64,000 nucleotides of DNA from an uncultured Dehalococcoidia bacterium. Lineage in GTDB: Bacteria; Chloroflexota; Dehalococcoidia; Lucifugimonadales; GCA-2712585. Where the stretch lies: the NCBI GenBank assembly GCA_951812825.1, contig OX638324.1, forward strand, positions 1,611,141-1,675,140, written 5' to 3'. A program made the position numbers and the translations under genes. The notes beneath the pieces are model-generated. The model saw only the letters and a program-made list of their open reading frames with translations, did not search any database and had not been told where the DNA came from. This document shows positions 22,091 through 51,798 of the stretch, piece by piece; the first letter of the stretch is position 1, and the number at the start of each line of letters is the position of its first letter.

Positions 22091-22166
22091 CCATCTTTCC
22101 CCACGCCCGACGTGGGGGTAGATGTGGGGAAAAATATAGCGGATTCCGCCTTAAATGTGGGGAAAA
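22091..22166. repeat. Putative integrase arm-type sites, left end
   Basis: ATGTGGGGAAAA occurs at 22122 and 22155, and an inverted relative (CTTTCCCCAC) at about 22095. The same word is found twice next to the right attachment site (62471, 62482). Clustered repeats at both ends of an integrase-mobilised element fit arm-binding sites. Confidence 0.55.
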
Positions 22167-22187
22167 TCAAGAGGCAAAAGAAGCCAT

Positions 22188-23345
22188 ATGCCAAAGCAAC
22201 TTACGGTAAAGAGGATCAATGCACTTACAAAGCCAGGAAGATTCGGTGACGGCAACGGTCTTTACCTTGAGATATCCAAGGGTGGAACAAAGTCGTGGAT
22301 TCAGAGAATCACGATAGACGGACGGCGGCGAGACATTGGCTTAGGAGGCTTTCCTGCTGTGAGCCTCGCCATGGCCCGTCAAAGAGCAGCAGGCAATCGG
22401 ACCGCTGTTGCCGAAGGACGGGACCCGCTGTTAGAGAGACGCAAGACCAGAAAGGTTCCGACATTCCGGGAGGTAGGAGAATCATTCTTGAAGGCGAACA
22501 CTCCCCGTTGGAAAGGTGAGAAGACCGCAAAAAACTGGCGAGGGCAGATGGAAAAGTACGCCTTTCCGGCGTTTGGGAATATCAGCATTGACCGGGTGGG
22601 TCGGATCGACGTGCTGGGCGTATTGACCCCGATTTGGACCTCCAAGCCATCGGCCGCCAGGAAGCTGCGCCAACACCTCAGGGCGGTCTTCTCCTTCGCC
22701 ATGGCCCACGGGTACGTGGGGTTCAACCCTGCTGGAGAGATTATCGATGCTGCGCTCCCGCCCATGCCTGCGGTCAAGAACCACTTCCGCGCTCTCCCCT
22801 ACCAGGAGGTAGGAATAGCCCTCAGAATGGTGGAGGCGTCTACGTCGTCTCTCTCATCCAGATTGTGCTTCAAGTTCCTGGTGTTGACGGCGGCGAGAAG
22901 CGGAGAGGCCAGGGGAGCCACATGGGACGAGATCGACCTGCACGATGCCGTCTGGACGATACCGGGTAACAGGATGAAGGCGGGGGTCGAGCATCGAGTG
23001 CCCCTGGTCAACGCAGCCCTGGAAGTCTTGGAGACGGCGCAGTTGCTTGATGACGGCAGCAATCTGGTCTTTCCCTCGTTGATGAAGCCTCGCCACCCGT
23101 TGAGCGACATGACGTTGACGAAGCTCCTCAGGGACCTTGGACTGGCGGAACGCGGAACCGTCCACGGTTTCAGGACTTCCTTCAAGACATGGTGCATGGA
23201 GCAGACGAATACCCCCTGGGCCGTCGGAGAGGCCGCCCTTGCTCACACCATTGGCAACAGCACCGAGGCGGCTTATGCTCGTTCTGACTTGTTCAAGAAG
23301 CGAAGGTCGGTAATGCAGCAGTGGGCAGATTACGTTCTGGGCTGA
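22188..23345 (+). CDS. int: P4-type tyrosine integrase
   Basis: Site-specific recombinase (385 residues) predicted to integrate and excise the island at tRNA-Gln. The N-terminal DUF4102-like domain starts MPKQLTVKRINALTKPGRFG and has GLYLEISKGGTKSWIQRI. The core-binding domain follows. Catalytic residues: Arg237 in TAARSGEARG, His326 and Arg329 in HGFRTSFKTW, His353 in LAHTIGNS and the nucleophile Tyr363. The ATG at 22188 is chosen; an ATG at 22155 lies inside a putative arm-site repeat. Reads away from attL, as usual. Confidence 0.94.
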   Translation: MPKQLTVKRINALTKPGRFGDGNGLYLEISKGGTKSWIQRITIDGRRRDIGLGGFPAVSLAMARQRAAGNRTAVAEGRDPLLERRKTRKVPTFREVGESFLKANTPRWKGEKTAKNWRGQMEKYAFPAFGNISIDRVGRIDVLGVLTPIWTSKPSAARKLRQHLRAVFSFAMAHGYVGFNPAGEIIDAALPPMPAVKNHFRALPYQEVGIALRMVEASTSSLSSRLCFKFLVLTAARSGEARGATWDEIDLHDAVWTIPGNRMKAGVEHRVPLVNAALEVLETAQLLDDGSNLVFPSLMKPRHPLSDMTLTKLLRDLGLAERGTVHGFRTSFKTWCMEQTNTPWAVGEAALAHTIGNSTEAAYARSDLFKKRRSVMQQWADYVLG

Positions 23346-25389: not shown

Positions 25390-28300
25390 ATGCCAATCAA
25401 GAACCCAAATGATGCGGCGGAGGTTGAAAGCAGAATCGCTCGCATCTTCGCCGCCACACCACCCGAAAGGGCGGCGGAAGTCCGTGCGCTCTTTGTTGAG
25501 GTGCTGGACTTCGATGCTGCTTCCGGCTGCGTGGACCTGGGGGCTGCGCTTGACAACGTCGTCCTGCCCACCTCGGCGGAGCGCATCGCTACTATGAACA
25601 GCGTGAACGTTGTGTACATCCCCCTGTCCATTCCGGGGACGGATCGCGTGCGCAAGGGTGAGGCTGCTGCAGCGGCCAAGCATATTGCGGACCAGCTCCA
25701 GGGCGACCTCCTACTGGTCTTCACCAACACGTCGGCCAGTCAGCTCCATCTGGTTTACCCCAGTTTCCAGGGGGCTCGTCCAGTCCTGCGGCGTATGGTT
25801 GTGGAGAGAGACCTGCCTCGTCGCACCGCCGTTCAGCAAGTCTCCAACATCTACTGGAATCATCGGCATAGCGGCAGCATCGTGCTTGCCCTGGATCAAG
25901 GCTTTGACGTTGAGCCCGTCACCAGAGAGTTCTTTTCTGAATACAAGCGGGTCTTCGAGAAAACGGAAGAAAGCGTCACCGGCTTTGAGGACGACGACGA
26001 GACGAAGCGGCGGTTTGTTCAGACGATGTTTAACCGCCTCATGTTTGTCTATTTTCTGTCTCGCAAAGGTTGGCTCAGTTTCAACGGTGACAAGGACTAT
26101 CTGAACGCCCTGTGGCAGGACTATCGCTCCGATGCCACACAGACTAACTTCTATCGCGAACGGCTTAAGCTCCTATTCTTCTTTGGATTGAACAATCCCC
26201 AGTCCATTGGCTTGAACTTCAAGGGCAGTCCCATGACTTCCTATTATGGCGACGTCCCGTTTCTAAACGGTGGGCTGTTCGAGAAAACTGACCTCGACAA
26301 GCGTGATGATATCGATGTGCCGGATGAGGCCATTAGGCCCATCCTGAGCGACTTGTTCGACCGCTTCAATTTCACTGTGATGGAGTCCACGCCCTTCGAT
26401 GTCGAAGTAGCAGTGGACCCTGAAATGTTGGGCAAGGTGTTCGAGGAGCTGGTAACAGGCCGCCATGCTTCCGGCGCATACTACACGCCCCGTCCCGTTG
26501 TTTCCTTCATGTGCCGGGAGGCTCTCAAAGGCTACCTTCAGGGGCAGGATACCGGTGTCCCGCCGGAAGCCCTCGCTCGGTTCGTAGACGAGCGCGATAC
26601 GTCCGGAATCTCGGTGTCGTCGGCCAAGGACGTGGCGGCGGCGCTGGACGAGGTGACGGTGGTAGATCCCGCCTGCGGCTCCGGAGCCTATCTACTGGGC
26701 ATGATGCAGGAACTTGTGGAGTTGCAGTCAGCGTTGTTCAACGTCGGAGTGGATGCCAAGGGGCTTTACGAACTGAAGCTGCATATCATAGAACGCAATC
26801 TCTATGGAGTGGACATTGACGACTTTGCAGCCAACATTGCCATGCTGCGGCTCTGGCTCTCGCTAGCCATCGAGTACGAAGGCGACCAGCCGGAGCCGTT
26901 GCCTAACCTGGACTTCAAGGTGGTATGTGGTGACAGTCTACTGGGGCCTGACCCCAGCGTAGGGGTGATGGCGCAAAGCGCTCTGGGTAGGTACGACGAA
27001 GCTATCCGAAAGCTGGATAGTTTGAAGGCCAAGTATATGAGGGCGCGGACCGGCCCCCAAAAGCAGAATCTGAGGGAAGACATTCGCGGGACGGAAGAGT
27101 TGATCAAGACGGCGATGGGAGACGCTAGCGTACCGGAGGCGGTGGTGGATTGGCGGTTACAGTTCGCTGAGGTGTTCGCTAAAGACGGGGGGTTCAATAT
27201 AGCAATCGCCAATCCACCGTATGTGCAGTTGCAACGAAACGGTGGGCTATTGGCGAATCGATACAAGGATGCGAAGTACACGACCCTTGCTCGTACCGGT
27301 GATATGTATCAACTCTTCTTTGAACGAGGTTGCCAGGCTCTTCGTGCCAGCGGCGGTATGCTGACCTACATAACTTCCAACAGCTGGCTGAAGGCAGAAT
27401 ATGGCAAGAAGACACGACAGTTCTTCGCAGACGGGCACACCCCTCTTCGATTATTGGAATTGGGCAAAGATGTCTTCGAGTCGGCTATCGTTGACTCGGG
27501 TGTGTTGGTGCTGAGAACCGGTGGACCTACTAATGGTACATTTCCTGGAGTAGACATGGACCGCTTGGCCGATAAGGCCATCCCGCCGGAGGAAAGGCAC
27601 TGGGGACAGGTGCGTCCTGATGGTGCTGCACCGTGGAGCATCCTTTCGCGCTTGGAACAAAGTGTGTTGGAAAAGATGCTTGCCAGGGGAACGCCATTGA
27701 AAGAATGGGATATTGCGATTTATCGAGGAATAACTACCGGCCTCAACGAGGCCTTCATCATCGATAACGAGACTAAGGAAGCAATAGTTGCCCAGGACCC
27801 GGGCTCCGAAGAGATTATCAAGCCTGTAGTGCGTGGACGGGACATCCGGCGGTACCAAGCCCGGTGGGCTGGACTATGGCTCATCGACGCCCACAACGGG
27901 TACGAAAACGTACCTGCCGTTGACATCAACGATTATCCGGCGATCAAGGCTCATCTTGATGGTTTCTATGACCGTCTGGCAAAGCGGTACGACAAAGGAA
28001 GGACGCCATACAACCTTCGTAATTGCGCTTACCACGCAAATTTCGGGCAGCCAAAGTTGTTTTGGGCAGACATGGCAAAGGTAGGCCGATTCGCCTTCTC
28101 TGAAAGGGAAACCTACTGCAACAACAAGGGGTATCTGCTGACAGGGGAGTCGCTCAAGTATCTATGCGCCATTCTCAACAGCTCCTTGATTACGTGGTGG
28201 GTGGGCAATATGGCAGCAACGACCGGGATGGGACTCACTGAGTGGACCATCGTAACTGTGGAGCGTCTGCCCATACCCAAGGTAGACGTTGAAGAACAGG

Positions 28301-28446
28301 GGCCACTCGTTCGCATCGTGGACCGCATTCTTGACGGCAGGGACTCCGATGCAGAACTGAGAGAACTGGAAAGCCAAATAGATAGAATCGTGTATTCGCT
28401 CTATGGACTAACTGAGCACGAAGTTGATTCGATAGAATCTAGGTAG
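25390..28446 (+). CDS. Eco57I-class adenine-specific DNA methyltransferase with C-terminal recognition domain
   Basis: A 1018-residue N6-adenine methyltransferase of the Eco57I/type IIG type. SAM motif DPACGSGAYL is at about 426, followed by NLYGVDIDDFA; the catalytic motif NPPYVQLQ is at about 608. A central segment before motif I has VTGRHASGAYYTPRPVV, typical of the class. From about residue 770 the protein is a TaqI-like target-recognition region (ITTGLNEAFIIDNE, RGRDIRRYQARW, CAILNSSLITWW, VERLPIPK). The N-terminal 200 residues show no clear PD-(D/E)xK nuclease, so cleavage may come from the PLD-helicase encoded downstream. A second, inverted copy of the C-terminal third lies beside it. 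Confidence 0.9.
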   Translation: MPIKNPNDAAEVESRIARIFAATPPERAAEVRALFVEVLDFDAASGCVDLGAALDNVVLPTSAERIATMNSVNVVYIPLSIPGTDRVRKGEAAAAAKHIADQLQGDLLLVFTNTSASQLHLVYPSFQGARPVLRRMVVERDLPRRTAVQQVSNIYWNHRHSGSIVLALDQGFDVEPVTREFFSEYKRVFEKTEESVTGFEDDDETKRRFVQTMFNRLMFVYFLSRKGWLSFNGDKDYLNALWQDYRSDATQTNFYRERLKLLFFFGLNNPQSIGLNFKGSPMTSYYGDVPFLNGGLFEKTDLDKRDDIDVPDEAIRPILSDLFDRFNFTVMESTPFDVEVAVDPEMLGKVFEELVTGRHASGAYYTPRPVVSFMCREALKGYLQGQDTGVPPEALARFVDERDTSGISVSSAKDVAAALDEVTVVDPACGSGAYLLGMMQELVELQSALFNVGVDAKGLYELKLHIIERNLYGVDIDDFAANIAMLRLWLSLAIEYEGDQPEPLPNLDFKVVCGDSLLGPDPSVGVMAQSALGRYDEAIRKLDSLKAKYMRARTGPQKQNLREDIRGTEELIKTAMGDASVPEAVVDWRLQFAEVFAKDGGFNIAIANPPYVQLQRNGGLLANRYKDAKYTTLARTGDMYQLFFERGCQALRASGGMLTYITSNSWLKAEYGKKTRQFFADGHTPLRLLELGKDVFESAIVDSGVLVLRTGGPTNGTFPGVDMDRLADKAIPPEERHWGQVRPDGAAPWSILSRLEQSVLEKMLARGTPLKEWDIAIYRGITTGLNEAFIIDNETKEAIVAQDPGSEEIIKPVVRGRDIRRYQARWAGLWLIDAHNGYENVPAVDINDYPAIKAHLDGFYDRLAKRYDKGRTPYNLRNCAYHANFGQPKLFWADMAKVGRFAFSERETYCNNKGYLLTGESLKYLCAILNSSLITWWVGNMAATTGMGLTEWTIVTVERLPIPKVDVEEQGPLVRIVDRILDGRDSDAELRELESQIDRIVYSLYGLTEHEVDSIESR
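27749..27794. repeat. 46-bp inverted repeat, left copy (inside the methyltransferase gene)
   Basis: Starts AGGCCTTCATCATCGATAAC and ends TAGTTGCCCA. It is an exact reverse complement of 29196-29241. It sits at codon about 787, the junction of the catalytic and recognition parts. The flanking homology on both sides is only partial, so perfect identity here points to recent recombination. Confidence 0.93.
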
Positions 28447-31696: not shown

Positions 31697-34600
31697 TTGA
31701 ACATCCTCCATTCCAAGACGGACCCGACACTGCTTGAACGTCTCAAGGGGATGCTGGGCAGTTCTGCGCGGGCGGATATCGCCGTAGGCTACTTCTTCAT
31801 CAGTGGGTTCGGAGCCGTTGCCGACGATCTGGCGGGGTTGGACAAGGTGCGCATACTGGTGGGACGCACGGACCGTCAGGTGCTGGAGGAAGTCGCCCTG
31901 GGTCTCCAGCAAAGCGAGGCCCTGCGCGCCCGTCTGGAGGCCGATGCCCTGGTTCAGCGCAGACAGCGAAGCCAGATTGCCCAGGAAACTGTCGCACGTG
32001 TCGCGGAGGGGGTTGCTACTCTTCCGCAAGACCAGGTGTCGGAGGATTCGGTCGCTAGACTCAGAGACCTGGTTGCGAGTGGCAAGGTTGAGGTGCGGGC
32101 TTACCTACGTAGTCCCCTCCACGCCAAGGCATATCTCTGCTGGTACGACAACCACGCCGAACCCGGCGCAGCGGTGGTTGGGTCGTCGAACCTCACGCTG
32201 GCCGGGTTCACGGGAAACACGGAGCTAAATGTACGAGTCACCGGCGATGCAGAGATGGAGGCCCTTCGCAAGTGGTTCAACGAACTCTGGCGAGACTCGG
32301 AAGACATCAGCGACGACTTGGTGTCGGAGTTAAACCGGTCATGGGTCTTAGCGGAAACGCCGCCCTATCATGTCTACCTGAAGGCTCTCTACGAACTCTA
32401 CTACACGGACGTGGGAGGCGGGCAGCTGGCGGTGCCGCCTCGGGACCACCTGCTGGCAAACTTCCAGCTGGACGCGGTGAGCCTCGGATTGTCGATGATT
32501 GAAGTCTATGGAGGCTGCTACATCGGCGACGTGGTAGGGCTGGGCAAGACATTCATCGGCGCGGAGTTGCTGAGGCAACTGCGGGTTAGTTACCCCAACG
32601 AAGGACCGCCGCTCATTCTCTGTCCTGCAGGACTGAAGCCCATGTGGGAGGCATTCAACGAGCGGTTCGCCCTGGGCGCGGAGGTGGTTTCGCATAGCAT
32701 GATTGCTGCACCTGCCGGGGCTGAGTTCGACGAGGAGTTGGGGCGGTATGTGGATACGGTCCCGCCCGGCCATGGAATCGATCTTGAACAAACCTATCCA
32801 AACCGCGGGCCGGTGTTGGTGGACGAAGCGCACAACTTCCGAAACATCAACCAACGTTCCAGAGGCCTCGCCAACTACCTGGAATCGGGCGACCACAAGG
32901 TGATTCTGCTCAGCGCCACGCCTCAGAACCTGGGGCCTATGGACATCTACCGGCAACTTCGACTGTTTCTCCACGACAGAGAGCATGGTCTGAACATCGA
33001 GCCGGTTAGCCTGGAGTCCTACTTCCGCAACGCCCAGTTATGGTTAGCATATCGAGCTGATTACGAGAACTATGAGGCAGAATTTGAATCGTGGCGGGCT
33101 TCTGGGTCAAGGGGCGCGCCTCCCTTGCCACCTGACAGGCCGAAGGTGCCCAAGGCGGAGATAGACCAGGTGCTGTTGCCGGTGTTCATTCGCCGCCGGC
33201 GAAAGGACATCAGGGACCTGTACCGGGACACGGCGCTTGTGGACGGCAAGCCGGTGCGCTTCCCTGACCCGGTATTGGACAATGTTGAATACCTGCTGGA
33301 TAAGGTATATGCGAAGGCAGGATCGCTGGACGAATTGGAGGCGTTGCTAGGCCTGCATAAGGGAGCACGGTATCGGGCCACCGAGTATATCAAGGAAGAG
33401 TTCAAGACCAAGCCGGAGTACCGCGACCTCTTCCGTGCAGGAGATAGGATCGCACGGCTCATGGGCGTTTTGTTGCTAAAGCGGCTTGAGTCCAGCATTG
33501 AGGCCTTCCGCTCCACGCTTCGTTCTCTCATGACCAGCAACCGAAACTTCCGCGAGGCCCTGGACGCTGGATTCATTCCTATTGGCAGCACAGCGACGCG
33601 CATCTTGGCCGGACAGTCCTTTGATGTAGACGACCTCTTTGAGGTACTCAGCCAAGAAGAGCAGCGCCGCCAGCAAGAGGGTAGCCAACGAGACAAGCTG
33701 GTCTACAGCGCAGCGGACTTCGAAACTGACAAGTGGACCAAAGACCTCGATGCAGACCATGATGTGCTGAGAGACATTATGGGGCGCGTGGAAGACATTG
33801 GGCCTGAGGACGACGATAAACTCCGTGCGCTTCGGGATTTTCTGGCCCGGCCGGAAGTGCAAGCGGGCAAGGTGCTGATATTCTCAGAAGCCGAGACGAC
33901 TGTGGAGTACCTCTATAGGGAACTGAACCCCAATGGACAGAAAGCAGAAATCGCACGGCTAACGGGCAGCACGAGCCATGATGCCGAGAGGTTAGTCAAA
34001 CGATTCTCGCCTACCTGGAATCTGGGACCGCGTGAGTCTTTGCCTGGACCGGAAATACGGGTTCTACTGGCAACGGACATCGTGTCCGAGGGACAGAACT
34101 TGCAAGATTGCGCGTGCGTGTTGAACTACGATCTGCACTGGAATCCGGTACGTCTCATTCAACGATTTGGTCGCGTCGACCGTATTGGCACGGAGCATGA
34201 CGTCATCAACTTGCATAACATGTGGCCCGACGTGGCGGTAGATGAGGAGTTGTCGTTGACTGAGCGACTGCTCCGGCGCATTCAGTTGTTCCACGACCTC
34301 ATTGGTTTGGACAGCAAGCTCCTTTCGGATACCGAGCGACTGAACGCGGGTGCGATGTACCGCATTTACGATGGGAAGACGCTACCCGAGATTGACGACG
34401 GATTGGATGAGGTGGCCGCCAATCAGAGAGCCATCACGTTGCTCCAGCGCATCCAGGAAGATGACCCGGATCTGTGGCACACTATCACGCAGCTGCCAGA
34501 CGGCATCAGGTCAGCATTGGCAGCGCGCACGGTGCAGGCGCCTTCATCTAACGGAAGCCGCAGTGAGGACGTGCTTGAAGAGATGGTTGCGCAGGTTCCC

Positions 34601-35191
34601 CTCATTTCACCTTCTACAATTGCCGCTTCAAACTCTCCCTTTGACGATCCAAGACAGGGAGAGACATTGGTCTTGTTAAGTGCAGGGGAAGTACGAAGCT
34701 GCTACGCGGTCGATAGCGATTTGGAGCCACGCGCCATAAGCCCAGCCCAGTTCATCGCGGCGGCAGAATGCAAGGACGACACCCCTCCCAAACCGTTGCC
34801 CAGAGACACGAATGAACGGGTAATGGCTGCGTTTGAATCGTTCAAGACCGACTTCCATCGAAGGCTGGGAAGGGCTAGAAGACCACGCGACACAATGGCG
34901 CGCCGTTACGTTTCACGCTACTTGGGCATCGCTTTGAGAGCAGCCAATGATGACCCGGGATTGCTAGACCGGATTGACATTCTACGTCGAATCTTCCTCA
35001 GTGACGTGTCGCCGCAAGTTGAGAGTGCTATGAGCGATATCAGACATCTGCGACTTGAAGGATCCATTCTGTTGACCAGGCTTGAAGCCTTACGTGAGCG
35101 GTATCGCCTCAACCCCCCCCACGACGCTGATCGAACTCGATCAGTGGAGCCGCAAGTCATCCGTATCGTCTGCTCCGACGGGATTGTTTGA
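31697..35191 (+). CDS. PLD-nuclease / SNF2-family helicase fusion
   Basis: A 1164-residue protein. Residues 1-200 are a phospholipase-D-type nuclease domain with an HxK motif in SPLHAKAYL (His142, Lys144) and VVGSSNLTLAGF. From about 250 there is an SNF2-like helicase: Walker A VVGLGKTF (Lys284), DEAH at 376-379 (VLVDEAHNFRN), LLSATPQN, and the C-terminal motifs TDIVSEGQNLQDC and IQRFGRVDRIG. The start is TTG with AGGTG 7 bases upstream. Together with the methyltransferase at 25390 it could form a complete restriction-modification system: modification and specificity by one chain, ATP-driven cleavage by the other. That pairing is inference. Confidence 0.9.
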   Translation: MNILHSKTDPTLLERLKGMLGSSARADIAVGYFFISGFGAVADDLAGLDKVRILVGRTDRQVLEEVALGLQQSEALRARLEADALVQRRQRSQIAQETVARVAEGVATLPQDQVSEDSVARLRDLVASGKVEVRAYLRSPLHAKAYLCWYDNHAEPGAAVVGSSNLTLAGFTGNTELNVRVTGDAEMEALRKWFNELWRDSEDISDDLVSELNRSWVLAETPPYHVYLKALYELYYTDVGGGQLAVPPRDHLLANFQLDAVSLGLSMIEVYGGCYIGDVVGLGKTFIGAELLRQLRVSYPNEGPPLILCPAGLKPMWEAFNERFALGAEVVSHSMIAAPAGAEFDEELGRYVDTVPPGHGIDLEQTYPNRGPVLVDEAHNFRNINQRSRGLANYLESGDHKVILLSATPQNLGPMDIYRQLRLFLHDREHGLNIEPVSLESYFRNAQLWLAYRADYENYEAEFESWRASGSRGAPPLPPDRPKVPKAEIDQVLLPVFIRRRRKDIRDLYRDTALVDGKPVRFPDPVLDNVEYLLDKVYAKAGSLDELEALLGLHKGARYRATEYIKEEFKTKPEYRDLFRAGDRIARLMGVLLLKRLESSIEAFRSTLRSLMTSNRNFREALDAGFIPIGSTATRILAGQSFDVDDLFEVLSQEEQRRQQEGSQRDKLVYSAADFETDKWTKDLDADHDVLRDIMGRVEDIGPEDDDKLRALRDFLARPEVQAGKVLIFSEAETTVEYLYRELNPNGQKAEIARLTGSTSHDAERLVKRFSPTWNLGPRESLPGPEIRVLLATDIVSEGQNLQDCACVLNYDLHWNPVRLIQRFGRVDRIGTEHDVINLHNMWPDVAVDEELSLTERLLRRIQLFHDLIGLDSKLLSDTERLNAGAMYRIYDGKTLPEIDDGLDEVAANQRAITLLQRIQEDDPDLWHTITQLPDGIRSALAARTVQAPSSNGSRSEDVLEEMVAQVPLISPSTIAASNSPFDDPRQGETLVLLSAGEVRSCYAVDSDLEPRAISPAQFIAAAECKDDTPPKPLPRDTNERVMAAFESFKTDFHRRLGRARRPRDTMARRYVSRYLGIALRAANDDPGLLDRIDILRRIFLSDVSPQVESAMSDIRHLRLEGSILLTRLEALRERYRLNPPHDADRTRSVEPQVIRIVCSDGIV

Positions 35192-42325: not shown

Positions 42326-44419
42326 ATGAAAGCGATACACAACCCATTGGTGCAATTCGTTAATGGGACAAAACAGTTCATAATTCCTGCATTCCAGCGA
42401 GACTACAGTTGGACCACCGAACAGTGCCAACAAATGTGGGACGACATAGTAAGGGCGGGTGCCAGCGATGGGGACCACTTCATAGGATCAATAGTCTACA
42501 TAGCCGGTGATACTACGACTGCCGTATTCAGCAGTTGGTTGGTGGTCGATGGACAGCAGCGGTTGACCACACTTACGCTTCTATTGATCGCCCTCCGAGA
42601 CCATATTCAAGAAACTGGTTGGGCTGGACATGAGCCGACTGTGGCCCAGATCGATGCCTACTATCTCAAGAACGCGCATGAGTCTGGTGAGAGAAGGTTC
42701 AAAGTCGCCTTGCGACGTCACGATGATGTGACGTTGAAGGCTCTTGTTGAGGGTAAGGAACCGTCAGAAATCGAAAGCAGTTCGGAACTGGTTGTGGAGG
42801 CTTACCTCTACTTCAGAAAGCAACTCAACCGCCCTGAGACCGACCCTGGGCTAATCTATCGGGGGGTAGGACGCCTAAACATAGTTGACGTTACGCTCGA
42901 TCGCCGGATAGATGATCCTCAACGAGTCTTTGAGAGTCTGAACTCAACTGGTGTTGACCTCACCCAGAGTGACCTAATTCGAAACTATCTCCTTATGGGG
43001 CTTCCAGAGCCGGAACAGACCCGGATGTACGACGACTACTGGAGCAAGATCGAGACACTTTTCCGCGAAACGGGAAGCTCTCCCGATACTTTCCTGCGAG
43101 ACTACATTGCACTCAAACAAGGTACGACTACTCAGGTCCGGGCAGATCGCATATACACGGAATTCAGAGAATTCTGGCAACCATCGGATGAGAAGCCCTT
43201 GGCAAGTCTATTGAACGATATGGTCCTATATGCACGCTACTTCGTATCCTTCGTACAGCCAGACCGTATAGACCACAAGCCGCTCAGCATGGCAGTCAGA
43301 CAGGTCCGAAGCCTGGGTTCCGCTCACGCCATGCTTATCATGAGGCTCTTCAATCTTCACGAGGAAAAAGCGCTCTCCAATAACGAGTTCATTCGAGCCT
43401 TGAATCTTATCTCAAGCTATCTTGTCCGGCGGTCAGTATTGGGTTGGCAGACTAGGGGTTACTGGGGAATCTTCGCTAGGATTGCTCACTCCCTAAAGAA
43501 TGAGGATCCATTAGGAAGCTTACAGGTTGCCTTCGCCAGACAGAATTACAGGATTCCCAATGATGGAGAGTTCATGTCAGCAATTCAAGAACGAGACCTA
43601 TACGGGCTGCGCATCTGCTGGCACATACTCTCCCAGCTTGAAAATTCAGAACAGAAGGAGCCTAGTCCTGTTAGCGAGTATTCTATCGAGCACATCATGC
43701 CCCAAAGCATTGACGATGTTCCAGAATGGAAGTGTATGCTCGGCAAGAACTGGGAGGAAGTTCATAGCAAGTGGTTACACAGGTTGGGCAACCTGACTCT
43801 AACCGGCTACAACAGCACCTATTCCAACAGGCCCTTCGAAGAGAAGAAAACGATAGATGGCGGTTTCTGTCATTCCGCCGTACGCCTAAACGGTTATGTC
43901 CGAAATCAGGCTGCGTGGACCGCCGATGAAATGAAAACGAGAGGACGATTGTTGGCACATCGCGCTCTAGACATCTGGCCTCATCACAATGCCGACGAAG
44001 GGCTCATTCTAGCGGAAGAGATTCGAGTACTGCGTAGTCGCGCGGATGAAAGGCAGCCGGATAGCATAGATATGGGTCCCAAAGCTGGAGAGATCCTTTA
44101 TGGCATTCGGGATTCAATTCGCGAACTTGGTGAATCCATTGAAATTGTTGAGCGGAGATCGCTGTGCTTCTATAGTGCCCTATCCGCCGGCTTCTTCGCA
44201 GAGACGCTGCCGATGTCAGGTTACGTTAGAATTCTCCTTCCCATCGATTTTGAGGAAGTAGACGATCCTGAAGGGATGGCGAGAGATGTGACGGCGTGGA
44301 AGTTCATTCCAAATGCTGTTAACCGTGACTGCGGTGTATTTATTGATGTCAGCAACCTGCAGGACATCCCTAAGGCAGTCGCAATGGTTCGCCAGGCGTT
44401 TAATGTAGTGGCGGAATAG
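42326..44419 (+). CDS. GmrSD-like type IV restriction protein (DUF262/DUF1524)
   Basis: A 697-residue fusion protein. The DUF262 (GmrS-like) nucleotide-binding part has IPAFQRDYSW (20-29) and VVDGQQRLTTL (73-83). The DUF1524 (GmrD-like) HNH nuclease part has SIEHIMPQS (His456) and HRLGNLTLTGYNS (His485), followed by a family-typical C-terminal extension of about 130 residues. Relatives use NTP hydrolysis to restrict DNA with modified cytosines, such as glucosylated phage DNA. It is alone in its transcription unit. Confidence 0.92.
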   Translation: MKAIHNPLVQFVNGTKQFIIPAFQRDYSWTTEQCQQMWDDIVRAGASDGDHFIGSIVYIAGDTTTAVFSSWLVVDGQQRLTTLTLLLIALRDHIQETGWAGHEPTVAQIDAYYLKNAHESGERRFKVALRRHDDVTLKALVEGKEPSEIESSSELVVEAYLYFRKQLNRPETDPGLIYRGVGRLNIVDVTLDRRIDDPQRVFESLNSTGVDLTQSDLIRNYLLMGLPEPEQTRMYDDYWSKIETLFRETGSSPDTFLRDYIALKQGTTTQVRADRIYTEFREFWQPSDEKPLASLLNDMVLYARYFVSFVQPDRIDHKPLSMAVRQVRSLGSAHAMLIMRLFNLHEEKALSNNEFIRALNLISSYLVRRSVLGWQTRGYWGIFARIAHSLKNEDPLGSLQVAFARQNYRIPNDGEFMSAIQERDLYGLRICWHILSQLENSEQKEPSPVSEYSIEHIMPQSIDDVPEWKCMLGKNWEEVHSKWLHRLGNLTLTGYNSTYSNRPFEEKKTIDGGFCHSAVRLNGYVRNQAAWTADEMKTRGRLLAHRALDIWPHHNADEGLILAEEIRVLRSRADERQPDSIDMGPKAGEILYGIRDSIRELGESIEIVERRSLCFYSALSAGFFAETLPMSGYVRILLPIDFEEVDDPEGMARDVTAWKFIPNAVNRDCGVFIDVSNLQDIPKAVAMVRQAFNVVAE

Positions 44420-44809: not shown

Positions 44810-46087
44810 TTATGTGGAAAGGCTTCGAGCTAGGTTGCCTAGCCATACTACACATTCTGAAATATGGCCGATTTTAAGAATTGCGGTGTCCAACGAAGTT
44901 GTTCCAGGGCAAATGGTTCTCAGTTGTTGTAGAACTTCATGATCTTTATTTTGGTCGACAGAACCCTTGAAGAGCGCACGCTTTAGTGATCGTGGGTAAA
45001 TCCAAACAATACCGGAAGGATCAATAGTAGCCACAGGCACATCTCTGGTGGGAGTGCGGACGGAAACAAAATACTCGTTGCTCCTCTTCTCACTGTCCGG
45101 TTGGATTGCTATATTGCCAGATGTTTCGGCAAGACGTCTTATTTGATCTCCAAACTCATCTATCAACTTACCCCTGCCTGATAGATTCCTAGGTTGAAGC
45201 TTGTTTCTAGAGTGATTGTCGGAAGATTCAATGCGAGACCTTGTAGGGATGGCCGTTTTCTCAGCTTCGCTCTCAGCATATACAGTGAATGTCCGCCACT
45301 CGTTTTCGGGGCTGTAAATTTCTCCAGAAACCAATCCAATATGCTCCAATCGACGTGCATCGATTGAATTAAGTAGCGCAAGTTCGTCCACGCTAACAAT
45401 AGAGTCGGGCCCGTTGTTTAGGTAGAGCAACCATGGTCTAAGGCTGAGGCAACGAGTTGAGTTTGGTTTGACCAAGATTACCTCACATCTCGATATTGTT
45501 TGGCTAATTGGAAGGTTTACTGCTGTATATCTTTCTGCAAAACCGTGACACCTGACGCCATTCAATAAGCTTGTGCGCCTATCAGGGGTCATCTCTAGGT
45601 TCTTGACTGCAATGAGTGCGTAGGAACGAAGGAAAACGAGCTCTTCCAAGATTTCGTCCATGTCAATCCTCAACGCGCGCAGCCAGACTGCGGTCTGGGC
45701 GAGCGAAGCAGCATGGGCGTCTCGGTTCCTACTCTCAACAACTCTCTGAAGCCGGGTCTTCCGTTGCCTGATTGCCTTTCCCAAATCTCCGTATAGGCGC
45801 ACTAATTGTGGAACATAGGCATTGTCGGCTACCGGCATAAGCGCGTTCGATGCCTCAACAATCAATGTGAAAAAATCACCTACCACCAACTTCTTCCGAG
45901 GTATTGGCGTTGGTAAGTGATCAATGAGACCAAGTCGGTGGCAGTCGTTTACCAAAATCGAAGCCATAAACTGAAGTGTGTTTTGTGCAAGTACCCTTAG
46001 CTGATCGAATTTTGCCCTTTCGTCGTCTTCAACATCCACTAGATGTCTTACGTAGGCAATTGGAGCTGGCAAAATATGGAGTTCCAT
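44810..46087 (-). CDS. Unknown protein of the DndD/HerA/methylase operon (425 aa)
   Basis: The last gene of the leftward five-gene operon, starting 2 bases after the methylase stop. The N-terminal half (1-160) is mostly helical (RQRKTRLQRVVESRNRDAHA); the middle contains NGVRCHGFAERYTAVNLPIS; the C-terminal part VPVATIDPSGIVWIYPRSLK is beta-rich. I do not recognise a known domain. The tight linkage suggests it is a dedicated subunit of the system. Confidence 0.75.
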   Translation of the reverse strand: MELHILPAPIAYVRHLVDVEDDERAKFDQLRVLAQNTLQFMASILVNDCHRLGLIDHLPTPIPRKKLVVGDFFTLIVEASNALMPVADNAYVPQLVRLYGDLGKAIRQRKTRLQRVVESRNRDAHAASLAQTAVWLRALRIDMDEILEELVFLRSYALIAVKNLEMTPDRRTSLLNGVRCHGFAERYTAVNLPISQTISRCEVILVKPNSTRCLSLRPWLLYLNNGPDSIVSVDELALLNSIDARRLEHIGLVSGEIYSPENEWRTFTVYAESEAEKTAIPTRSRIESSDNHSRNKLQPRNLSGRGKLIDEFGDQIRRLAETSGNIAIQPDSEKRSNEYFVSVRTPTRDVPVATIDPSGIVWIYPRSLKRALFKGSVDQNKDHEVLQQLRTICPGTTSLDTAILKIGHISECVVWLGNLARSLST

Positions 46088-46089
46088 GG

Positions 46090-47973
46090 CTAACTTCCAC
46101 TAGAGAACTGTCCGATACTTGCCAGGTAGCCCTCAAAATCTCCTGCTGGATTCAAGGTTGCGAGAGCTGCAGCCATTGCGTAGCGAGCGCTAGTAATATC
46201 GATACTCTTCAACTGATCGAGTGTTGAAAGGCTCCGAAGTGCATCTTCAAGCAGAATGTCTTGCTGTCCCAAACCAACCTCATCACGCTTACGACAGTAA
46301 AATATCGAATCTATCTTGATATTGCCGACAGAGCTGTGGAATCCATTGTCAAGTTCAGATCGAACAAACATTAGTCTATACGGAACAATTCCAGACCTTC
46401 TCAGCGCCGTAGCTAGGCATTTCCAGGCTTGTGCCTTCGCATGATGATACGAGAAGGCTACGACTCCTTTGGGCTTTAGTTTTCTCAAGGCTTGTCTGAA
46501 TACCTTTGCAAGTTCCTCGCCAAATTTTTCTGCCTTCAGATTCGAAACTGCAATCCTGGATAAGTCGGTTTCGCTGAGGGAATATTTCTTGTCAAAAGGT
46601 GGTTCGTTGTTCAGCGTAATACGCAACCATTGGAAATAGAAATCACTTAGTTCTCCGTAGTCGAGATTATCAAAATATGGGGGATCCGTTACAATCGCAT
46701 CCATGTCATCCCAATTGATTTCCGAAAGGGCTTGAGATGGCAAACACCTCACATCTCGTTGTGGAGGTGAGCTTCCGTCTAAAGAGGCTGCGAGAATCGA
46801 AGATCCAATAGTCGAATATGCTCTGCTCGCTTTGCTAACGCAGTTCCGAAAGCTGCCTCTACCTCGGGATGCGCCCCAGACATTCCCTTCGACCGGTCTA
46901 GTCACCACATCAAATCCATGTAGCCCGAAGGCAGGGGTTAGTTTAAGCCAATCCGCTGCGTAGCGACACATTCGATTGTTGTTACCGGCAGCGTCTGAAA
47001 GGGCGAGAGCCATCGCATACCTTGAATCTGGATCGTCCAGGTTGCTGATGGCTTCAGAAATCAACGAAAGTGACAATAACTGTCGAGGAGAAAACAACTG
47101 TCCGTAGTACGAGAATCCATGAGAGATGGGTCTTGGATCCCTCCGATCCATTGGAATGCGAGTGTCATTTATCCTGCAAGCAATTTCGTTGGTGCGGCAT
47201 TGTAATTTGGCAGTTTCCACGTTTTCGAAATCGATAGCAGATGGCCTGTGGTACCGGCGTCCAGACTTCTTTGAATACGACTCAACAGCAATTAGCTTGT
47301 ATTCTGGGGGACCGACTTCCTGCTTGTAAAATTCGGACAAACGCACTTGGCGGCCCATCACTCTAACTTGCCCCCTTGAGACCGTACCTTGCTGCCAGTA
47401 AAATGCCGAATAACACTTAGTGCATCGCACAAATTCAGAACAATCACCTGAGAAAATTTCGCAGCAAGTGGGGCAATAGTAGACTGCCCAATTCCTCCCC
47501 CTGTCCCGTGCGAGCAAATAGTTATGATGCAGTTCGACTTTCCCTTCCTGCGGCGTACGCACAACACGCACATAGAATCCGGTTACAAACTCTGAAGGTA
47601 CTCCCTCAGGAGTCTCGGTAGTGAACAAGTACCTTATACGATCTCCCACAGATTCATTGATCATCCCAAAAGATTCTTCCATCCGCACTTTAGTTGGGGG
47701 ACTCAGCGTCTGTCTAGCTATCAGCCATGCCACTGGGTTGATATCTACTCCGAATACATCGTGTCCATCCATTAGGCATTCCAATAGAATCATCCCAGAT
47801 CCCGCGAAGGGATCCATTACCCTCAAACGGCGAGCATCGGATGAGCCATCAAGACCGTCTAGCACTCTTCGGATGGCATCGGGACGCCTTCTGGCAAACC
47901 ATTTGTGGATTAGCGGCGCCACTTTCCCAGCTTTATGCCTGAACATCTGGGAATTTGGAGCGGTCACACTCAT
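46090..47973 (-). CDS. DNA methylase with internal zinc ribbon (COG1743-like)
   Basis: A 627-residue DNA methyltransferase. The N-terminus has the KVAPLIHKWFARRRPDAIRR motif typical of COG1743-like adenine methylases; SAM motif DPFAGSGMIL at 54-63 with FGVDINPVAW; an inserted zinc ribbon CPTC (167-170) and CTKC (184-187); catalytic TDPPYFDNLDYGELSDFYF at about 429. Likely methylates adenine (or N4-cytosine) to mark self DNA for the linked ATPases. GGGAG is 7 bases before the ATG. It follows the HerA gene after a 145-base gap. Confidence 0.88.
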   Translation of the reverse strand: MSVTAPNSQMFRHKAGKVAPLIHKWFARRRPDAIRRVLDGLDGSSDARRLRVMDPFAGSGMILLECLMDGHDVFGVDINPVAWLIARQTLSPPTKVRMEESFGMINESVGDRIRYLFTTETPEGVPSEFVTGFYVRVVRTPQEGKVELHHNYLLARDRGRNWAVYYCPTCCEIFSGDCSEFVRCTKCYSAFYWQQGTVSRGQVRVMGRQVRLSEFYKQEVGPPEYKLIAVESYSKKSGRRYHRPSAIDFENVETAKLQCRTNEIACRINDTRIPMDRRDPRPISHGFSYYGQLFSPRQLLSLSLISEAISNLDDPDSRYAMALALSDAAGNNNRMCRYAADWLKLTPAFGLHGFDVVTRPVEGNVWGASRGRGSFRNCVSKASRAYSTIGSSILAASLDGSSPPQRDVRCLPSQALSEINWDDMDAIVTDPPYFDNLDYGELSDFYFQWLRITLNNEPPFDKKYSLSETDLSRIAVSNLKAEKFGEELAKVFRQALRKLKPKGVVAFSYHHAKAQAWKCLATALRRSGIVPYRLMFVRSELDNGFHSSVGNIKIDSIFYCRKRDEVGLGQQDILLEDALRSLSTLDQLKSIDITSARYAMAAALATLNPAGDFEGYLASIGQFSSGS

Positions 47974-48118
47974 GCCTTCACTCCCTACCGCAAACTGCAG
48001 TTATAGGTTAGGTTTGAGTTGGCCTAGCGTCATTCTGAACAGCCACCGATTGCAGGGAGATTTGTTGCAAACTCGCTTTGGCAGGACAGCAATATGTGGA
48101 TTTCAGAATAGTGGTAGT

Positions 48119-49690
48119 TTAGGCCCTCTTGTAGTATTGAACTGCTGAAAGGATCGACGACTTTAAGTCTCTACCTAGATTCCTGGAGTATAGAATTTCT
48201 CCGACCCCAAGTCCTGAGATGGCATTGGTGACTTCCTGAATTCGTTGGGCAGCGGTAGGTATCATTGCTCTAATGTCTGAGTTGCTTCGGATATTCGACT
48301 TAAAGAAGAAAGAATTACTTATGAATTCACGATAGTCTGCGCCAGCAGGTCCAGCAAGGTCAGAAACGGTCTGCGTAGCGAGAAACACCGCCACACCTTT
48401 CGAGCGTCCCTCACGTATAATCCTTGCTAATGGGGATGAACGATGCGAAAGATAGTGGTGTGCTTCGTCGATGAAGATGACGTGACGCAACTCTATGATC
48501 GACCCCGCTCTTGGTGCATCTGGAAGCCTTTTCATCTCGTCATAAAGCCTGCTAATTAAGAGGAAAGCCGCAGGCATTGTGTCAGCAGCCAATTCATTAA
48601 GACGGACCAACAATGAGCCGTTCAAGAGAGGCAAAGTGTTTTGCTCAGAGGGAACTTCTTCGAAAATTCGAAGAACCTGTAACCTGGAAATAACTTCCGT
48701 GAGTCCATCATCCTTTCGACCTCTTGCTGAATAGAATTCCCTAAGGCGGTCACCTAGTACATCGAATCCGAACGCATTCATATTCTCTGCGTTGGACATT
48801 ACTTCCACGAGCACCTCGCGAAGAGCCAATCTCTGCTGTGTGCCCAACTGAGAGTAGAATTGACTAATCAAATCTGTTACGGTCAGCGCATATTGTTCGG
48901 GGTCCAGAGAAGAGGACCTGAGAAAGGGCACGGCTGGGATTCGAGATACTCCTGGTACAACAATGTTGCAACCCAAATGCGATTCGAACAGCTGATGTGC
49001 CTTACTTCCTTTCTCAGACAGGTCTCCTTTGTAGTCCAAAACTGTAAAGGTGAGATCTGGATTCCTGCTGCGCAATTGATAAAGCAAATCCAGCACAAAT
49101 TGCGTCTTTCCCTGTCCACTTAAGCCGATTATGCAGGCGTGGGGATTTTCGACTGATTCAGTGTCCGCAAGTCTCCAATATACTTCTTTTCCTTCCTTGT
49201 TGTTCCCCAAACATAAGCCTGAACCATCTTCTGAGAAGCGGTGGATTGACTCCAATTCATCCTTAGCTTCAATTCCAGTAGGAATTTCTTCCAAAAGCAA
49301 ACCGAAAAGCTCCTCAAAGTTCGACGCATCATTAGCTAGTTCCCATAAGAGCGAGGAGCCTAAGTGAATGTGGTACCAAACTTGTTCGTAAACGTCATCC
49401 AGTGGGAGTCGTTTCTTGGCCAAAGTTTGAATCACCGTGGGAAAAAGCGCCATCTGAGTGGTAGAAGAAGAAATCTCGAATACGCCAGGTAGACGAACAG
49501 GCCGATCTTGGTCAGAATCAATCTCGGGTGGCGGGTCCTCAAGGATACCGTTCCGCCTTAGACTCAACATTGCGGCTATTCTGTATACTAGGCCAATTCT
49601 CCCTATTTCTGGAAACTTACGTAGGACATCATGTGCTTCTTGGTAAGCGCGCGTGGAAACCTTTACCCTGTCCGGTATTCTACTCGTCAA
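48119..49690 (-). CDS. HerA-like ATPase with DndE-like N-terminus
   Basis: A 523-residue protein. Residues 7-50 (RVKVSTRAYQEAHDVLRKF and LVYRIAAMLSLRRNG) resemble the small DNA-binding protein DndE; this match is by eye. The remainder is a HerA/FtsK-type hexameric ATPase: Walker A GLSGQGKTQ (189-197), Walker B VIFIDEAHHYL (404-414), a sensor FLATQT, and an arginine-rich IIREGRSKG. Predicted DNA-translocating motor. The start is TTG, with AAGGA upstream, and overlaps the DndD-like stop by 11 bases. Confidence 0.85.
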   Translation of the reverse strand: MTSRIPDRVKVSTRAYQEAHDVLRKFPEIGRIGLVYRIAAMLSLRRNGILEDPPPEIDSDQDRPVRLPGVFEISSSTTQMALFPTVIQTLAKKRLPLDDVYEQVWYHIHLGSSLLWELANDASNFEELFGLLLEEIPTGIEAKDELESIHRFSEDGSGLCLGNNKEGKEVYWRLADTESVENPHACIIGLSGQGKTQFVLDLLYQLRSRNPDLTFTVLDYKGDLSEKGSKAHQLFESHLGCNIVVPGVSRIPAVPFLRSSSLDPEQYALTVTDLISQFYSQLGTQQRLALREVLVEVMSNAENMNAFGFDVLGDRLREFYSARGRKDDGLTEVISRLQVLRIFEEVPSEQNTLPLLNGSLLVRLNELAADTMPAAFLLISRLYDEMKRLPDAPRAGSIIELRHVIFIDEAHHYLSHRSSPLARIIREGRSKGVAVFLATQTVSDLAGPAGADYREFISNSFFFKSNIRSNSDIRAMIPTAAQRIQEVTNAISGLGVGEILYSRNLGRDLKSSILSAVQYYKRA

Positions 49691-51614
49691 AATAGCCGTT
49701 CCTTATTTCAGTCTGCCCCGTCTGGGTGTCTAGATGCAAATGGTGCTTGGTGGCGAGAATAGGCGCCATGCGTTCCATTTCCTCTGGCCCAATCTCGGAA
49801 TCAGTAGCTAAAATTACTACTTGAGGTCCAAGACACGGGAAAAACCCGTGTAACGCGTTCTTTCGGTGAGCCATGTCGAGCCTAGCCAGAGGGGTATCGA
49901 TTACGGCGGGAACCTGTCTATTTGAAAGTTCTACCACGCTTGCGATTAAAGCGAATGCCAAGATCTCCTTCTGACCCGCACTTTGCTCCATAGCCAGCAA
50001 CTCTGCTTTTTTGTTTAGCAATCGGAGTTCTACATTGTCGGTATCAATCTGGATTGATTCTATTAGGCCAGGCGCATTTGTTAGCTCCCTGAATTTCCGA
50101 TTCACGATTTCCTGTAGTTGACCAACTCGCGTACTTCGATAGTCAGACACAAAATCTCTCAATACTGCTAAAACCTGTTCACAGACTTCTATGTTGTCTG
50201 TAAGCGACCTGTATTTCACTTTTTCTTTGGTCAAACGTGCAATATCCCTTTTCAAACCATCGGATTCCTCGGTCAAGCGATCCTTTTCGCCTGCCAGTGC
50301 CTGAAGCGATGCTTCATGACGGGCCTGCGCGGTGCGCACAGCTGTCATTTGATCGTGTAGATTCTTGGCGTCTATGTTGATATTGTCGGCGCTTGGAAGG
50401 CCCGCAATCTCATGGCTAACCTTGTCCAACGATGAGCGCAGTGCCTGCAACTTTTCTGGAAAAGATGCAATTCGATCCTTGCCGGCACCAATCAATGCTG
50501 CTAGACTCTCCAAGCTATCCTCATCTGCATTATTTACGCCTTCGTCCGAGATGTTTCCCAGAGTATATGCTAGGATTTCGCTTAACCGCTCAACAGAATC
50601 TGAGGCTAGGGCATCGTAAATTGCATCACGATTCAGGTGCAAAAAAGTAGCCAATTCTTCTATTGTTTCTGGGAGACTCCTCCCATTGGGGGAAGTACTC
50701 TCCAAGGCTCCCAAAATTTCTGGCCAAAACCACGATACTATTGCTTCCTTTGGCAGCAGACTTGTCAGCGCGGCTTCGTATTCCTCAATATCCCCAAGCA
50801 GCGCGTTTCTCTGATTCTCCATCGCCCTCCTTTCCGCTTGGATTTTGGGATCGAATAGCCCTTGTAATCTCGCCTCTTCCAATTCCAATTTGGCATAGTC
50901 TGCTTTTGTCTCTGATATAGAGTGGGTTAGATCTTTCCGCCTTCTGTCAATTGACCTTAACGACGCGTCATTGCGATCCACAGTCTCCTGCTTTCCCAAT
51001 AAGTCCTCGTTTACGTCGTGCAGGGTTCTCTCTTTCCGCATAGTTTGCTGGATGCTTTCTACATCTCTTTGCAATTGTATGTAGGGATTGAGCCCTAGTA
51101 GCCTTTCGATCGCGTCTCTCACGCTCTCCGACGCCTTGTCGATATAACTTTGGACTTTCTCGCCATCAAACAGGAATAGATTCCTAGTCTGAAACGGGAC
51201 TAGACTATTCATGAATTCTGCGATGTCATCTTCTTCCGTGATGCTGTCACCGCTATCTAGGTTTTGAAGTAGCGAATGAAGTACCACGCTGTTGATGCTG
51301 TGTTCATTCGGGCCCGACCGTCTAGTCCAACTACGACTCAAGACGAATGATTGTGACTCGTGTACAAACTCAATCTCAACTGCCATCTCTCTCGGACCCG
51401 GTTCTGTTCTTGAAAAATCCCGAGCTCTGAGTATAGGATCAGATTTCGAGGCAAATAGGCATGCTTGAATTGACTCGAACATCGTGGTTTTGCCAGCACC
51501 GTTTTTTCCGCCAACAAGATGAACATGTTGACTATCTATTGGGCGAAGAAATTCAATTGTCTGCTCGCCATAATATCGCCGAACGTTTTTGATCGACAAC
51601 TTAGTGAGAATCAC
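49680..51614 (-). CDS. DndD-like SMC/RecF-type ATPase
   Basis: A 644-residue ABC-type ATPase of the DndD/SbcC group. The N-terminus has KLSIKNVRRYYGEQTIEFLR and Walker A GGKNGAGKTT (35-44). The middle is long coiled coil. The C-terminal signature is AGQKEILAFALIASVVELS (from about 546) and Walker B PAVIDTPLARLD (573-580 region). DndD acts with DndBCE in phosphorothioate modification, but no dndA, B or C is present here. The GTG start overlaps the upstream small gene; AGGGAG is 7 bases before it. Confidence 0.88.
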   Translation of the reverse strand: MILTKLSIKNVRRYYGEQTIEFLRPIDSQHVHLVGGKNGAGKTTMFESIQACLFASKSDPILRARDFSRTEPGPREMAVEIEFVHESQSFVLSRSWTRRSGPNEHSINSVVLHSLLQNLDSGDSITEEDDIAEFMNSLVPFQTRNLFLFDGEKVQSYIDKASESVRDAIERLLGLNPYIQLQRDVESIQQTMRKERTLHDVNEDLLGKQETVDRNDASLRSIDRRRKDLTHSISETKADYAKLELEEARLQGLFDPKIQAERRAMENQRNALLGDIEEYEAALTSLLPKEAIVSWFWPEILGALESTSPNGRSLPETIEELATFLHLNRDAIYDALASDSVERLSEILAYTLGNISDEGVNNADEDSLESLAALIGAGKDRIASFPEKLQALRSSLDKVSHEIAGLPSADNINIDAKNLHDQMTAVRTAQARHEASLQALAGEKDRLTEESDGLKRDIARLTKEKVKYRSLTDNIEVCEQVLAVLRDFVSDYRSTRVGQLQEIVNRKFRELTNAPGLIESIQIDTDNVELRLLNKKAELLAMEQSAGQKEILAFALIASVVELSNRQVPAVIDTPLARLDMAHRKNALHGFFPCLGPQVVILATDSEIGPEEMERMAPILATKHHLHLDTQTGQTEIRNGYFDE

Positions 51615-51798
51615 TAAACTTCTCCCTCGTGAAATCCTCTATACATCCCCTTAGCGCAGGGAATATTCCTCGTCGTCTAAGGCGACGTTCATTGTCCCTT
51701 TCTAACTGAATCAACTCTTCAATCAACTCTGGCTCTATATCGAAACCAATACAGTTTGCCATAAGAAGTCTGTGTTCGGTTTCATCCTGCTGTGACAT
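51601..51798 (-). CDS. Small acidic/basic helical protein, first gene of the operon
   Basis: A 65-residue protein (MSQQDETEHRLLMANCIGFD...) rich in charged helices, including ELIEELIQLERDNERRLRRR. It overlaps the DndD-like gene by 14 bases, which suggests that it is real and translated first. No recognised family; it may be an adaptor or regulator of the ATPase. Confidence 0.65.
   Translation of the reverse strand: MSQQDETEHRLLMANCIGFDIEPELIEELIQLERDNERRLRRRGIFPALRGCIEDFTREKFSDSH

Follow-up and report, generated by a model that had tools for sequence, protein, structure and literature searches.

The DNA analysed here, referred to as the window, is a stretch of 64,000 nucleotides (nt) from an uncultured Dehalococcoidia bacterium (contig OX638324.1, positions 1,611,141–1,675,140), whose genome is available as a single contig of 2.47 Mb with 95.65% completeness and whose relatives are uncultured Dehalococcoidia/SAR202 Chloroflexota. 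Between positions 44810 and 51798 the minus strand carries a leftward operon of five genes that encode, in order of transcription, a small protein (Sp), a DndD-type ATPase, a fusion of DndE and HerA, a COG1743-like DNA methylase and a protein of 425 residues termed P425 (Table 1). The Sp and DndD genes overlap by 14 nt and the DndD and DndE-HerA genes by 11 nt, while the methylase and P425 genes are spaced by 2 nt. An earlier note on this DNA had described all junctions as overlaps or short gaps, which is correct for these three but not for the 145 nt between the DndE-HerA and methylase genes, the only gap in the operon that is not short. A second Dehalococcoidia genome (G045, locus L012) also carries the five genes, arranged in identical order; its HerA gene is interrupted by a transposase gene. 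In a codon comparison of the two loci the proportion of nonsynonymous differences (pN) is 0.18–0.37 for all genes, far below the saturated synonymous value (pS) of ~0.8, and the orthologues are 48–74% identical. The genes are therefore real and under purifying selection.

Table 1. Features of the operon and of the neighbouring genes in the window.
Feature	Position	Strand	Evidence or remark
Sp, 65 residues, stand-alone homologue of the DndC C-terminal DndD-docking tail (apparent)	51601..51798	-	PF20306, DndC alignment
Docking segment, Sp residues 2-49	51652..51795	-	ungapped alignment to E. coli DndC
DndD, coiled-coil ABC ATPase, 644 residues, GTG start	49680..51614	-	TIGR03185, PADLOC, motifs
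DndE-HerA fusion, 523 residues, TTG start	48119..49690	-	Pfam, PADLOC, profile-profile
DndE-like head, residues ~5-139	49274..49678	-	hhalign, predicted secondary structure
HerA/FtsK ATPase domain	48122..49147	-	Pfam HerA_C, PADLOC DndH C-terminus, motifs
COG1743-like DNA methylase, 627 residues	46090..47973	-	PF01555, NF042963, motifs
Methylase Zn-ribbon CPTC ... CTKC, at residues 167/184	47413..47475	-	motif
P425, 425 residues, orphan; candidate effector or specificity factor	44810..46087	-	no family match
RNRDAH (R-N-x3-H, HEPN-like motif) in P425	45713..45730	-	conserved in orthologue
GmrSD/DndI-type DUF262 + HNH nuclease, convergent with the operon	42326..44419	+	PF03235, PF07510, PADLOC Orf5
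PLD-SNF2 helicase in island	31697-35191		
Eco57I-like gene in island	25390-28446		

Sp matches PF20306 (Sp-DndD) with an E-value of 2e-4 and 21.8 bits, below the cut-off of 27.2, and its L012 orthologue matches at 7.7e-8, above the cut-off. When Chloroflexota were searched with PF20306, canonical dnd operons were reached as well, with the match lying inside the C-terminus of DndC. Likewise, positions 395–445 of the NCBI DndC profile match the Sp genes of genome G101 and positions ~406–460 of the DndC-like profile PRK06850 match Sp. The window Sp can be aligned without gaps to residues 431–478 of DndC from E. coli H240 with 20 of 48 residues identical, and none of 5000 shuffles scores as high. 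In a published model DndC residues 433–482 lie on the DndD head, and binding is lost in the triple mutant L458D/E462A/R471A (PMC12193691). The published mutant numbering (B7A) was transferred via E. coli H240 DndC, where residues 458/462/471 are Leu/Glu/Arg. All three contact residues are kept in Sp as L29/E33/R42 and are invariant across five Chloroflexota Sp.

In the loci examined, the tail domain has one of two locations. The domain is part of DndC itself at L043–L046, L049, L059, L069 and L072, and is a separate gene directly before DndD in the window and at L010–L013, L021, L060, L070 and L071; L009 and L018, which are degenerate or cut by a contig end, were left out of the tally. The profile used was trained partly on the tallied loci, with E-values of 1e-4, 2e-7 and 9e-8 for the untrained loci L021, L049 and L070. 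Among the DndD loci examined, the canonical ones thus carry the domain on DndC, and those where DndC is tail-less or absent carry a separate gene just before DndD. In Methylorubrum extorquens AM1 (L021, 3999–5363) DndC is a 380-residue enzyme followed in the same frame by an Sp of 70 residues, which restarts 9 nt past the end of DndC with its own start after a G-rich stretch and is in turn followed by DndD and DndE-HerA. Judged from these alignments, Sp appears to be a stand-alone version of the C-terminal DndD-binding tail of DndC. This origin is apparently new: in those parts of the published text that were accessible, no earlier statement of a relation between Sp and the DndC tail was found. 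The earlier note had described the operon as having no sulfur-modification genes; that nothing of them remains is not supported, since the DndD-docking tail of DndC would survive as Sp.

The identities of the next three proteins agree with the earlier note. DndD scores 266.1 bits against TIGR03185, the NCBI curated DndD profile with a cut-off of 245.85 bits, and matches the PADLOC DndD model at 2.9e-90. It contains a Walker A motif (GKNGAGKT), a signature motif (SAGQK) and the sequence AVIDTP; inspection of its motifs did not reveal a CxC zinc hook. The HerA domain of the third protein matches Pfam HerA_C (3.6e-6), has the C-termini of DndH as its best PADLOC relatives (2.5e-34) and shows Walker A (GLSGQGKT), Walker B (IFIDEAH) and ATQ motifs. 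The top folds found by Foldseek are the DndH C-terminal domain (PDB entry 7es4) and TdpAB, but the model is of low confidence (predicted local distance difference test, pLDDT, of 51) and was not relied on. Most of the inspected matches of a plasmid tblastn search with HerA were DndH C-termini or other HerA and conjugation ATPases; one, that at L021, is a DndE-HerA protein.

The fusion protein of the window has no direct match to Pfam DndE, and a PDB sequence search with its DndE-like head gave chance matches only. Five homologous heads aligned by hhalign against three genuine DndEs gave a probability of 55% (E = 1e-4), which rose to 89% (E = 2e-6) when the Bacteroidales protein of L018 was added to the DndE side. 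This homologous fusion matches Pfam DndE at 1.2e-20 and aligns with the window protein across its entire length. The head is predicted to consist of two strand–helix–helix units and a C-terminal helix (again from the poor overall model), and this predicted secondary structure matches the double ribbon-helix-helix of DndE (PMC10853773). A DndE-like head had been proposed for residues 1–60; its DndE-like nature is upheld, although its real extent is larger. At L018 (2066–5631) the DndE-HerA gene lies directly upstream of genes for two D12 methylases and for an AlwI-type restriction enzyme.

The methylase matches PF01555 (8.2e-9) and, with its C-terminal part only (profile positions 407–757), the DUF1156 family NF042963 (1.2e-25). 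Motif I (DPFAGSG) is found at residue 54 and motif IV (DPPY) at residue 430, and the four cysteines of the Zn-ribbon are kept in the L012 orthologue. DPPY methylases of the COG1743-like kind usually make N6-methyladenine (m6A), and from this motif the mark is probably N6-adenine methylation. On an 8-kb Tabrizicola plasmid (L055, 2367–6936) a relative of this methylase precedes a DUF262 protein and a nuclease of HEPN-like type.

P425 does not match any entry of Pfam, PADLOC or NCBIfam, sequence searches of plasmids, viral contigs and the PDB found nothing, and a fold search with its model (pLDDT 42) gave no match with an E-value below 0.001. It occurs in two of 250 genomes of the order, both times inside the five-gene operon. 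HEPN RNases are characterized by an Rx4-6H motif within a helical bundle. The two orthologues have the RNRDAH motif in common, which in this low-confidence model is located between two predicted helices. Because the model is weak and the fold search empty, we consider it rather doubtful that P425 is a HEPN-type RNase.

DndE-HerA proteins are rare. They were found in five of the 197 relatives searched, four outside the window's own genome, and in one of 393 genomes of the class, the window's own. Genome G101 has two copies (L010 and L011) of the Sp, DndD and DndE-HerA genes without a methylase, each followed by a 215-residue protein that in one copy is read as Mrr_N plus sigma-70 region 4. The DndE-HerA query also matched six of 296 Bacteroidota genomes, at least one match being a long DndH-like protein instead. 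The Bacteroidota loci L069 and L072 contain DndC; L070 and L071 do not, but have Sp and a protein with sigma-70 region 4, and L071 in addition a PLD nuclease. The DndC-less neighbourhoods of the three-gene core are L010, L011, L070 and L071. Sp–DndD–DndE/HerA is thus a core that can be reused and whose partners vary.

Four further observations concern these loci. Helix-turn-helix proteins with sigma-70 region 4 recur beside DndC-less cores in two phyla (L010 13689–14336, L070 3750–5954 and L071 4688–6688). On a Mesorhizobium plasmid (L060, 6745–15425) DndA, DndC, an ATPase and DndE are followed by Sp, DndD and a DndE fused to an FtsK-type rather than HerA-type motor, and this locus is two Dnd cores in tandem. 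At L009 (8558–8884 and 12420–15011), a degenerate locus, an intact DndE-HerA gene is preceded by a chimaera in which the beginning of an unrelated SMC-like ATPase runs into the last part of DndD, which suggests a hybrid made by recombination or a relic. Beside the operon of L012 there is a long array of short repeats (16074–18999) with open reading frames reading 'GLSPRVRGN / SIPARAGQP / VYPRACGAT'.

The occurrence of the core without methylase and P425 in G101 and at L070 and L071, together with the 145-nt spacer that separates the HerA and methylase genes of the window, could mean that the operon consists of two adjoining modules, an autonomous Sp–DndD–DndE/HerA core and a separate restriction-modification-like unit of methylase and P425, that are neighbours by chance. 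Yet the order is the same in G045, where the HerA and methylase genes overlap by 4 nt, and P425 is present nowhere else among the 250 genomes of the order. We regard chance adjacency as unlikely, though it is the strongest of the competing explanations.

A phosphorothioate system that uses sulfur genes elsewhere in the genome would be suggested by the ability of IscS to replace DndA (PMC10853773) and by those DndE-HerA loci that do have DndC (L069, L072 and L021). The best match to the DndC profile in the window's genome reaches 20 bits against a cut-off of 290, similar to the CysH-like background in E. coli, and DndB was not found by profile search, so that neither gene is detected genome-wide in this one-contig assembly, in line with what the earlier note had said of dndB and dndC. 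Moreover, Sp stands in for just that segment with which DndC would occupy DndD. This explanation is very improbable.

The general type of the operon is already known. Fusions of DndE with a HerA or FtsK motor, encoded next to a DndD-like ATPase, have been described as HerA clade 3 (Rakesh, Aravind & Krishnan 2024; PMC10853773). The same study reports that CxC-type systems include a small protein and that some systems and DndDE pairs lack DndC or sulfur genes; it also describes methylases in place of sulfur genes in CxC-type relatives and puts forward the idea that DndDE cores recruit methylases. With the DndE-HerA subset of clade 3 the operon shares the fusion and the DndD-type ABC ATPase gene directly before it, but that subset was described within phosphorothioate modification systems, while the window has no DndC or DndB and has a COG1743-like methylase and P425 downstream. 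DndD, the DndE domain and the DndD-docking tail of DndC are common to the canonical DndCDE complex and the operon, which lacks the PP-loop sulfur-transfer domain of DndC and whose DndE bears a HerA motor. The CxC ABC-ATPase/DndE systems (PbeABCD, with cytosine methylases) also combine a sister ATPase of DndD, DndE, a small protein and a methylase in place of sulfur genes. The window ATPase, however, has no CxC zinc hook, the HKD-SF2 helicase PbeA is not among the five genes, the methylase is of another class (DPPY, Zn-ribbon) and DndE is fused to HerA.

The likeness to DndFGH is limited to the HerA domain, which is closest to the DndH C-terminus in the PADLOC comparison and the low-confidence fold match given above; the operon has no DndF or DndG, and the HerA protein has a DndE head instead of the N-terminal domains or the restriction endonuclease domain of DndH. 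The COG1743/DUF1156 methylases of Hma, BREX-related and other systems share the C-terminal methylase core, but the window methylase has no matched DUF1156 head, is 627 instead of ~950 residues long and lacks helicase, DUF499 and PglZ partners. Of the MADS proteins, mad8 resembles HerA (1.5e-21) and mad2 the methylase (4e-7), and the other mad1–8 genes are absent from the operon. The operon thus falls outside the definitions of Dnd phosphorothioation (no DndC), PbeABCD (no CxC motif, no PbeA), DndFGH, MADS and Hma. A full-text search of the open-licence literature found no named system with exactly this set beyond what PMC10853773 describes. The earlier note's statement to this effect stands, but DndE-HerA fusions next to a DndD-like ATPase, the small protein and DndDE pairs without sulfur genes are published there, and the operon is less unprecedented than that statement implied. 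It is the combination of a DndD-type core, DndE-HerA, Sp, a COG1743-like methylase and P425 that appears to be new.

The operon is part of an integrated island (21912–52000) in which tRNA-Gln precedes the gene of a P4-type tyrosine integrase (22155–23345). The G+C content falls from ~62% to 46–58% across the island, which also holds other restriction-type genes (Table 1). The nearest of these, convergent with the operon, encodes a GmrSD-type protein with matches to PF03235 (5e-38), PF07510 (4.7e-22) and PADLOC Orf5 (1e-157). DndI, also a DUF262-HNH nuclease, senses phosphorothioate (PMC11662687), and a GmrSD gene adjoins L010 as well, so the neighbour might be the true restriction effector, with P425 as a regulator or specificity subunit. 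A relative of 57–59% identity in the same-genus genome G001 has no Dnd core adjoining, and no GmrSD gene was seen near L012, which makes this role highly unlikely. As an obligatory partner the nuclease is ruled out by its solitary relative in G001. It is a possible accessory, but probably an independent gene.

On the likeliest reading, the five proteins make up a scanning complex of the DndCDE type from which the sulfur enzyme is missing and which works with a motor, a methyl self-mark and an effector response. Sp would dock onto the DndD head at the site of the DndC tail, as its homology and identical contact residues suggest, and the DndE head would bind the DndD coiled coil and recognize DNA, as in its family. 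DndD and DndE would scan the DNA while the fused HerA ring translocates it. The methylase would place a base mark, probably m6A, on host DNA as a self-tag replacing phosphorothioate; by analogy, methylation in place of phosphorothioation is a plausible self-mark, and the idea has been published for CxC/DndE relatives (PMC10853773). On meeting unmarked DNA the complex would stall or be activated, and P425, possibly a HEPN-type RNase, would execute the response. The operon is probably anti-phage.

This scheme is favoured by the domain identities, the correspondence of Sp to the DndC tail, the conserved order of the five genes, the lack of DndB and DndC, the DndC-less neighbourhoods of the core at other loci, the purifying selection, the position in an island of low GC that has an integrase next to tRNA-Gln and contains restriction-type genes, and the published DndDE-methylase idea (PMC10853773). 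Three points weigh against it. Only two genomes are known to have all five genes. The core also exists without methylase and P425 at L010, L011, L070 and L071, so that the core as such can do without methylation. Finally, the evidence for the HEPN proposal is a motif of six residues together with a model of low quality, and family and structure searches lend it no support. From sequence, we put the probability of the whole scheme at about 0.5. The more specific proposal that the sulfurtransferase was discarded, its ~50-residue tail being kept as the adaptor Sp, and that DndD–DndE/HerA reads or writes the base methylation of the COG1743-like methylase, is tentative.

A narrower role is suggested by the function of DndDE as the site-recognition pair for DndC chemistry (PMC10853773, PMC12193691) and by Sp, which marks the former attachment place of a modifying subunit: DndD, Sp and DndE-HerA could be the targeting part only, directing the methylase to DNA sites as DndDE does for DndC, in an operon without effector. 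COG1743-like methylases nevertheless act in many other systems without DndDE, and the core persists without any methylase. Such a purely targeting function seems improbable.

Within the family, the assignment of Sp would provide a definite structural role for what has been called a small disordered protein and would explain the small gene before dndD where DndC is absent or shortened. The docking residues L29/E33/R42 offer a ready point-mutant test of this role. Whether DndD–DndE cores without sulfur genes serve other DNA modifications has been raised and left undecided (PMC10853773); because the operon joins a core of this kind to a methylase in a gene order that is conserved, it makes this question testable.

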